Below, in pieces: positions 47,548 through 48,658 of a DNA stretch of 64,000 bases. The stretch is from an uncultured bacterium. GTDB taxonomy: Bacteria > Elusimicrobiota > Elusimicrobia > Elusimicrobiales > Elusimicrobiaceae. The DNA lies in assembly GCA_949291545.1 (NCBI GenBank), contig CASEWB010000006.1, positions 248,001-312,000 on the forward strand. The letters run 5' to 3'. Each line of letters begins with the position of its first letter. The stretch's first letter is position 1. A program made the translations under genes and the position numbers. The notes beneath the pieces were generated by a model that did no database searches, had not been told where the DNA came from, and saw only the letters and a list, made by a program, of their open reading frames with translations.

Positions 47548-48125
47548 TTAATAATTGGGGAAACGATAACAAGCTTGTCGTAAGGAGCCATACAGGCAGC
47601 TCCCTTCTGCCGCTCCCGTCAAACTCCGACACATTGCTTTTCCCCAGTCCGAATTAGGCATACAAAACACTGCACCGGACTGATTGCCAAAACCTGTTGC
47701 ACTGGAGGGGTTTAAAACCATATATAGAAAAAAGCCACGATTCGTACCAGATTCCAAAAACGGATTTGATGCTATGCCCCCATTTGCTGAAGTAAATTGC
47801 AACTCCGAATTAACAGTTAATTTGATATTGCAGCTATCACCTAACGAAGAGGCAGACTTATAGGCAATTCCAGCAGAATCAGCAAACATTTCTAAATTCA
47901 AGCAGGCGGCATTTCCTCCATCGAGAAGGTATAGGTCTCGTCCGCGTTTTAATTCTTTAAACCACGGCAACACTCGACTCACACGACTTTTCATTACCGT
48001 TTTTTCATATTGGGGTAACGCAATCGCCGCCAAAATGCCAATAATTAAAACGACCACTAACAGCTCTATCAGCGTAAATCCGGCGTGTTTTTCGTGGGGA
48101 GGGATTTTTGATAAATTTTGTCCAT
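47548..48125 (-). CDS. Type IV pilin-like gene, leader out of frame
   Basis: From [17 protein letters not shown] onward this is a standard pilin (about 170 residues; cysteines at CLNLE, CNIKL, CMPN, CRSL). The start expected by homology with two sibling pilins is ATG 48125, encoding MDKIYQKSLPTKN, but that frame then ends at a TGA. Compared with the siblings (..PKNAGF, TKKNAGF) there is a net two-base insertion (a repeated AC) between the leader and GFTLIEL. The only in-frame alternatives are TTG codons within the promoter. The gene is probably off, and restorable by losing two bases. Confidence 0.65.
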
Positions 48126-48159
48126 AGGCAAAATTTATCAAAAAAAAAAAACGAGTCAA
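48032..48159 (-). promoter_or_regulatory. Pilin promoter with poly-T spacer (12 T) and start-codon inverted repeat
   Basis: TTGACT (48154-48159), a 16-base spacer with twelve T (48140-48151), TAAATT (48132-48137), six bases and ATG 48125. The -10 region and the first codons form an inverted repeat (TTTTTGATAAATTTTG / CAAAATTTATCAAAAA) with the ATG in the loop. Confidence 0.5.
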
Positions 48160-48190
48160 GCCTAGCGCCTGGCCTCCCTTTCCTTCACCT

Positions 48191-48215
48191 GTTCACACGA
48201 CTAGTGGAGCCACAC
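48191..48215. repeat. 25-bp direct repeat, left copy
   Basis: Identical over 25 bp to 48496-48520; contains CACGACTAGTGG and the small inverted repeat GTGGAGCCAC. The pair brackets about 280 bp of hairpin-rich, gene-free DNA. Confidence 0.7.
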
Positions 48216-48322
48216 TGTTGCCGTACTGTCGCACTGTTTCAAAAGGAAAAAGTCGTTTCCGCTTATGTCGTTGTCGTTGCTGTTGCCGTTTATCCGGCCC
48301 TTTTGCCCCGTCTATAAAAAGC

Positions 48323-48400
48323 CTTCCAAGCGGATTAGAAATTTTATTGTTTGAGCACGGGGCACAGCCCGCGCGAGTTATAAAATTTCCCGCTTGGAAG
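48323..48400. repeat. Long inverted repeat (MITE-like hairpin)
   Basis: CTTCCAAGCGG (48323-48333) and AAATTTTAT (48339-48347) pair with ATAAAATTT (48380-48388) and CGCTTGGAAG (48391-48400), enclosing a GC-rich loop of about 32 bases. T-runs flank both sides, so it could terminate transcription in either direction. It lies in a gene-free stretch upstream of the frameshifted pilin. Confidence 0.6.
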
Positions 48401-48409
48401 TGATTTTTA

Positions 48410-48480
48410 TGGGACCCTGGGCCGGCGCTCTTTTTCGCCCTTTTTCTGGCGTCAGAAAAAGGGCACCCCGAGCCGGGGCT
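48410..48480. repeat. Dispersed repeat, copy B
   Basis: Shares CCTGGGCCGGC and the CTGGCGTCAG hairpin with 27740-27800. Here the hairpin is a perfect 12-bp stem, GCCCTTTTTCTG / CAGAAAAAGGGC, loop GCGT (48437-48464). Confidence 0.55.
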
Positions 48481-48495
48481 CCCTACTCTATACCC

Positions 48496-48520
48496 GTTCA
48501 CACGACTAGTGGAGCCACAC
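48496..48520. repeat. 25-bp direct repeat, right copy
   Basis: Identical to 48191-48215. Apart from the listed repeats and the terminator near 48.62 kb, I see no gene between 48160 and 48658. Confidence 0.7.
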
Positions 48521-48609
48521 GGCTCCCGCAATGCCGTGCTTCGGAGTGTGTTTTCCCGGGAGGCCAAATCCGGGCCGACCGTCCGCGCTGTTTTTTGTAT
48601 TCAAAACAC

Positions 48610-48640
48610 AAAAAGCCCCGGCGCATATACCGGGGCTTTT
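48610..48640 (-). terminator. Terminator of the RND efflux operon
   Basis: GCCCCGG / CCGGGGC with an eight-base loop and TTTTTGTG on the minus strand, after the stop at 48659. Confidence 0.8.
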
Positions 48641-48658
48641 GCTAACAAATTATTTCGT

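Follow-up and report, generated by a model that had tools for sequence, protein, structure and literature searches.

The window, the whole 64,000-nucleotide stretch of DNA analysed here, belongs to a 1.55 Mb genome of 11 contigs that is assigned to the Elusimicrobiota by inference from its named relatives. Between an orphan type IV pilin ORF (47548–48159, minus strand, from the ORF list) and the TolC-like gene upstream of it lies a patch crowded with repeats, for which an earlier note proposed a miniature transposable element with flanking duplication, a small RNA locus or a recombination target. What is this patch, and how does such a sequence come to stand beside a pilin gene?

Layout of the patch

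The direct repeats, the inverted repeat and the 12-bp hairpin reported in the earlier note were all found where it had placed them. The direct repeats, located by a direct-repeat search, proved to be members of a 65-bp family (repeat A) that are 78% identical at a spacing of 305: repeat A1 (48167–48231, plus strand) lies between the pilin leader and the element described below, and repeat A2 (48472–48536, plus strand) lies beyond it. Both contain an identical 25-bp core, GTTCACACGACTAGTGGAGCCACAC, at 48191–48215 and 48496–48520 (plus strand). The presumed flanking duplication does not look like one made at a target site in the classical way, since the 25-bp repeats are the cores of the longer repeat A.

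An inverted-repeat search recovered the two arms of a central helix, AAAAAGCCTTCCAAGCGG (48316–48333, plus strand) and CCGCTTGGAAGTGATTTT (48390–48407, plus strand), which are imperfectly complementary, 56 nt apart and bounded by A/T runs at both outer ends. The 78-base inverted repeat of the note is therefore present, but it is only part of a longer imperfect rod hairpin of about 138 nt (48288–48425, plus strand), which is supported by covariation and matches positions 1–133 of our covariance model R1 at 153.2 bits (E 4.1e-37). Downstream of the rod a 28-nt palindrome (48437–48464, no strand assigned), identified by repeat search and copy alignment, forms the perfect 12-bp hairpin with stem 48437–48448/48453–48464. 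We refer to the rod and palindrome together as element B (48288–48464). A hexamer-like tract of variable length (GTTGCC-type) precedes the rod in most copies and occupies 48264–48290 in the window. ORFs do overlap the patch, yet indels between copies are not multiples of three, which upholds the view that no protein frame accounts for it and rules out a protein-coding remnant.

Element B is flanked on one side by a terminator-like hairpin of the TolC-like gene (48611–48640, minus strand, terminator scan) and on the other by a promoter-like site of the pilin gene, consisting of TTGACT, a 16-nt spacer with a run of 12 T and TAAATT (48132–48159, minus strand, consensus match only). The rod itself was not called as a terminator in the scan of the window. 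A perfect 16-bp hairpin of the shared pilin leader, LDR (48105–48144, no strand assigned), overlaps the promoter-like -10 and the usual ATG. Orphan type IV pilin loci number over 30 in this genome, alike in their 5′ leader and N-terminus and divergent in the remainder. The promoter-like site is common to the pilin genes, with a T-run spacer of 8–13 across the loci of this genome (L016–L045), and the hairpin beside it carries the usual ATG in its loop. This arrangement looks like a phase-variable promoter. For the pilin gene in the window (48090–48125, minus strand) the usual ATG is shifted in frame relative to the pilin, within the leader peptide; at the same site in the related genome G014 it is in frame.

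Copies of element B and conservation of its fold

Seven copies of element B, one of them partial, were found in the genome. DNA searches at an E value of 0.01 gave matches in 18 of 61 genomes including our own; 17 of these belong to the same genus and the remaining match is only 24 bases long. Across 340 genomes of the phylum, the model R1, built from 29 copies, matched 40 (37 in the genus, three in two other families), with at most nine candidates scored per genome, such that copy counts are lower bounds. The copy-number check suggested in the earlier note thus revealed dispersed copies in this genome and its relatives, and the idea of a single-copy leader or gene remnant fails because the sequence is multi-copy and its presence at this site varies. 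Searches of phages and plasmids gave no DNA match, nor did own-type patterns match viral contigs, and an origin of B from phage or plasmid was dropped on these grounds. A viral pattern based on the distant genome G333, the G333 and G292 copies compared with plasmids, and a Pasteurellaceae-type copy compared with phages likewise gave no match.

Folding of the patch is much more stable than that of shuffled sequence, with z scores of -6.5 (plus-strand RNA), -7.1 (minus-strand RNA) and -6.8 (DNA), and none of 200 shuffles folded as well in any of the three tests. A chance origin can be excluded, as other genomes contain the rod with compensatory changes. Standard pairs fill 98.4% of the pairing cells in the 29 distinct copies, and changes on both sides are seen at 20 of the 40 pairs, a number reached by none of 500 shuffles; in a control in which the partner was slid by 1–3 columns, pairing fell to 36–59% and double-changed pairs to 3–7. 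Covariation extends to 38 of 40 pairs in a larger collection of 46 matches that were aligned to the model, although this collection includes opposite-strand echo rows and a model-fitted alignment, making the 29-sequence test the cleaner one. After removal of nine opposite-strand echo matches and L185, the remaining 36 rows contain 1258 Watson-Crick, 27 G-U and 13 A-C pairing cells on the modelled strand.

The asymmetries of the rod are conserved as well. An internal loop, TGTTTGA/GAGTT, is kept in nearly all copies of our alignment of the element (alignment A1), as is a one-sided 4-nt bulge. The palindrome of other copies carries a different stem (GGTACTTTTT.. / AAAAAGTAC) that is still self-complementary, and in the aligned copies T-runs follow the GC stems on either strand. 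The scarcity of G-U pairs suggests a constraint exerted more on the DNA than on an RNA, and the rod would then be a structure maintained at the DNA level rather than at the RNA level.

Related architectures were also encountered outside the phylum. A loop-based pattern matched one IMG/VR contig with nrdD-like and trimeric-autotransporter-like genes, which on gene names assigned by eye reads as Pasteurellaceae-like; it contains a rod with TGTTTGAGCGTAGCGAGTT followed by a hairpin of the B kind, and R1 aligns to 44 nt of it at 25 bits. Intergenic repeats that resemble B in having a long imperfect rod and then a hairpin of the CTTTTGCCTACTTTTCTTTG..CAAAGAAAAGTAGG type also occur on plasmid or chromid records of Pasteurella, Paraburkholderia and Pseudoalteromonas; these records share the hairpin, and the rod preceded it in the copies read. 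R1 gave no match to the copies from these three replicons. Paraburkholderia records (including L221) have 37–40 or more hairpin places of the TTTTCTTTTGCCTACTTTTCTTTG type per replicon, with a rod before the hairpin in the copy read. These likenesses suggest that B belongs to a wider class extending beyond the phylum, with a homology that is proposed from architecture and not proven.

Site comparison and replication orientation

Every one of the 13 matches to repeat A in this genome lies at a pilin or B site, which rules it out as a genome-wide repeat, and it also occurs upstream of pilin genes without an adjacent B. At the site of the patch the order is purB, pilin, leader, A, B, A, tolC, and G014 has purB, a different pilin, the leader, a single A and tolC, with no B. 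The two genomes differ here by exactly 305 bp bounded by the 25-bp repeat, which belongs to repeat A: the single A of G014 consists of the left part of repeat A1 and the right part of repeat A2, with the junction within the 25-bp core. This difference could represent either gain or loss of B. Among the other relatives, the purB|tolC site has only a short gap between the genes in G012, G081, G028, G034 and G023, and other pilins in G077 and G073. Comparison of five more sites with seven relatives showed pilins, A and B gained or lost independently, with several sites empty in some relatives; across the sites compared, relatives have different pilins, a lone B or nothing. Between an lpxK-like gene and a polysaccharide-deacetylase-like gene (lpxK|PDA; L012 3008–4377, G000:C11), B-A is duplicated around a pilin in our genome only among those compared, and G012 and G014 have B-A without a pilin.

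A further site, glgP|trmL, carries B in 10 of 30 loci fetched. Gaps with B measure 197–504 nt in 9 loci; of 15 gaps in which R1 had no match, 12 measure 35–114 nt, six of the 30 trmL loci being left out of the measurement because the N-terminal pattern was not found. Two of the longer gaps in the latter group (L270 and L277) resemble eroded rods, and the patchy distribution agrees with gain or loss having happened repeatedly at this site. In several of the short gaps without B, among them L276, L279, L282, L283 and L286, a GC hairpin and T-run lie just past the glgP stop, and B would thus sometimes stand where other genomes have an intrinsic terminator.

This substitution raises a tentative and rather unlikely alternative, namely that B acts mainly in transcription, as a bidirectional terminator or insulator or a 3′ UTR structure under selection, and is copied with pilin modules so that it shields a newly placed pilin gene from read-through. 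The GC stems with T-runs on both strands agree with it, as does the gene context. In the distant genome G333 all seven copies lie between two co-directional genes with B antisense to both. Removal of identical copies kept 68 unique ones, and those with short flanks were then set aside. The 700 bp downstream of the reverse complement of B contain the N-terminal motif of a same-strand pilin in 24 of 53 such copies versus an opposite-strand one in 1 of 53; upstream, the motif occurs on the same strand in 2 of 60 and divergently in 6 of 60. Against such a role as the main one, the upstream gene in the window already has its own terminator-like hairpin, and a terminator has no need of so long a rod (138 nt), of the conserved mismatches in it or of the conserved TGTTTGA/GAGTT internal loop.

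The orientation of B was examined relative to the leading strand, with GC skew serving as a proxy for the direction of replication. Along contig C6 of our own genome the skew is negative in the samples between 1 and 427 kb and positive in those from 460 kb onwards; the samples of C7, C9 and C11 are positive too. Counted by eye, 32 of 33 pilin or leader places are on the leading strand, a count that takes in the skew-sampled contig regions and excludes places on C1, C3, C4, C5 and C8. We then considered 33 stretches picked around B copies in six other genomes of the genus, dropping opposite-strand echo matches co-located with a stronger match. Of the 36 copies of B there, 33 have their reverse complement running with the leading strand, as against 228 of 456 other, non-pilin ORFs in these stretches (Fisher p 3.5e-7), the ORFs being those of 130 aa or more rather than curated genes. 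Pilins are on the leading strand in 46 of 47 cases there, although they are partly linked to B by the choice of stretches and do not form an independent sample. In distant genomes 8 of 9 B copies and 70 of 91 other ORFs follow the leading strand, so that B and gene direction are not separated there; in G333 the neighbouring genes do so in 61 of 69 cases and the orientation of B is not independent of them. The discordant copies, 4 of 45 overall (3 of 36 in the genus and 1 of 9 in distant genomes), are among the weaker matches, at 80, 66, 61 and 37 bits. Selection for orientation could mimic strand-specific insertion of B.

Element B is multi-copy, has a conserved structure with fixed asymmetries, is present or absent at fixed sites and has an orientation tied to replication by GC skew. 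Its distribution is best explained if B is gained and lost at intergenic sites in company with the orphan pilin modules and the junction repeat A but without depending on either. Of the three proposals in the earlier note, which are thus supported in part, the miniature element or recombination target comes closest.

Relation to known repeats and probable origin

Several systems invite comparison. B resembles REP, BIME and REPIN sequences in being dispersed intergenic hairpin DNA whose stems contain conserved mispairs and compensatory changes, the last also reported for REPINs (PMC3116915). It differs from them in its single, much longer rod, the added second hairpin and the few copies per genome, and from REP/REPIN-RAYT systems in the lack of a RAYT/Y1 gene in its own genome. 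Our searches for Y1_Tnp (PF01797) found none in 12 of 16 genomes tested, among them this one and others with many B copies, whereas 5 of 14 control genomes gave a match; no R1 match was present near the six Y1 loci fetched, out of 11 Y1 matches listed. Mobilisation of B by a resident Y1/RAYT enzyme is accordingly not supported. The GTAG (or CGTC) tag is absent from the foot of the B hairpin in alignment A1, inspected by eye; the ends there are GTTTATCCGG and GGCCGG, and GTC is internal and variable. As a moderately abundant palindromic family B is also like the terminal inverted repeats of 'TIRtrons' (TIRYT) and CGTC-tagged REPs as these are presented in PMC3733652. For the CGTC-tagged repeats that account gives no dedicated transposase, a further resemblance to B, for which we found none either. 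The difference from TIRtron ends is that no B-flanked TIRYT gene was found at the six Y1 loci and that CGTC is not at the end of B. The main text of PMC3733652 contains no occurrence of Elusimicrob, Pasteurella or Burkholderia.

Like classical bacterial MITEs, B is short, non-coding, intergenic and polymorphic in presence, but no short terminal inverted repeat with a short target-site duplication was seen, and its flanks are 65-bp modules with a distribution of their own. Integron attC sites end in R-boxes (RYYYAAC..GTTRRRY) and go with an integron integrase; by eye, the ends of B in alignment A1 are not R-box-like. In the open-access literature we found nothing relevant on the B motif and no paper on Elusimicrobi* pilins or type IV pili titled on these repeats, beside the REP literature and general papers on strand asymmetry, and as far as that literature shows B appears not to have been described before. 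We would place it among the interspersed palindromic repeats as a new form, with REP/TIR-like behaviour but with neither the tag nor the transposase of those families.

Our preferred reading, to which we give about an even chance (roughly 0.5), is that B is a non-autonomous, dispersed REP/TIR-like hairpin DNA repeat of about 180 bp that spreads on single-stranded DNA at replication forks, recombines locally through repeat A and may have a role in ending or insulating transcription. B would probably spread as folded single-stranded DNA exposed at forks, handled by a putative enzyme. A dispersed, polymorphic, replication-oriented hairpin with fixed asymmetries is the expected product of such handling, which is recorded for IS200/IS605 elements (PMC6006769) and proposed for REPs (PMC3116915); lagging-strand handling is also reported for IS200/IS605 (PMC6006769). 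Because Y1 is absent from 12 of the 16 genomes and B from the surroundings of the six Y1 loci, we propose the behaviour and leave the enzyme unnamed. Recombination between flanking A repeats would add or remove B locally, and copies may be tolerated or kept since the rod could end or insulate transcription. A terminator or insulator role is compatible with spread on single-stranded DNA and may explain the retention of B.

Two further readings centre on the pilins. B could be a recombination-promoting structure of pilin exchange, its hairpin breaking DNA or exposing single strands while modules recombine through A, B and the shared leader; the different pilins, or lack of one, at the same sites in relatives, the doubled B-A at lpxK|PDA and the leading-strand bias of pilins all point that way. 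We consider this quite unlikely, given that the genome has only seven B copies to more than 30 pilin or leader places and that B occurs without adjoining pilins in G333, G291 and G292. Also doubtful is a genome-wide pilin exchange tied to the replication fork, in which dozens of orphan promoter-repeat pilin modules would be placed at shared intergenic sites in the leading-strand orientation only. The rod and hairpin, as a family reaching outside this phylum, would there be the single-stranded DNA substrate through which a putative enzyme renders that placement strand-specific. A structured non-coding or cis-regulatory RNA, which the strong covariation and the excess of G-U over A-C pairs (27 versus 13, modelled strand) would favour, is very improbable: G-U makes up only about 2% of pairing cells, Rfam gave no match at the gathering score and none credible below it, B is multi-copy and patchy, and the modelled strand is mostly antisense to its neighbours in Elusimicrobiota (sense in two Pasteurellaceae-type cases). 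No known RNA family was identified, and the small RNA locus of the earlier note finds no support in the Rfam search or among the covarying pairs, where G-U is scarce.

As a dispersed hairpin repeat of the kind we favour, B offers a family conserved in structure with which to test strand-specific, replication-coupled spread where the usual class of enzyme is mostly absent. The same site holds different pilins in different relatives, and this turnover of orphan pilins at fixed sites, almost only on the leading strand, bears on surface variation in these Elusimicrobiota. The orientation of B and its association with pilin sites hint at how repeats and pilin genes move on these chromosomes.
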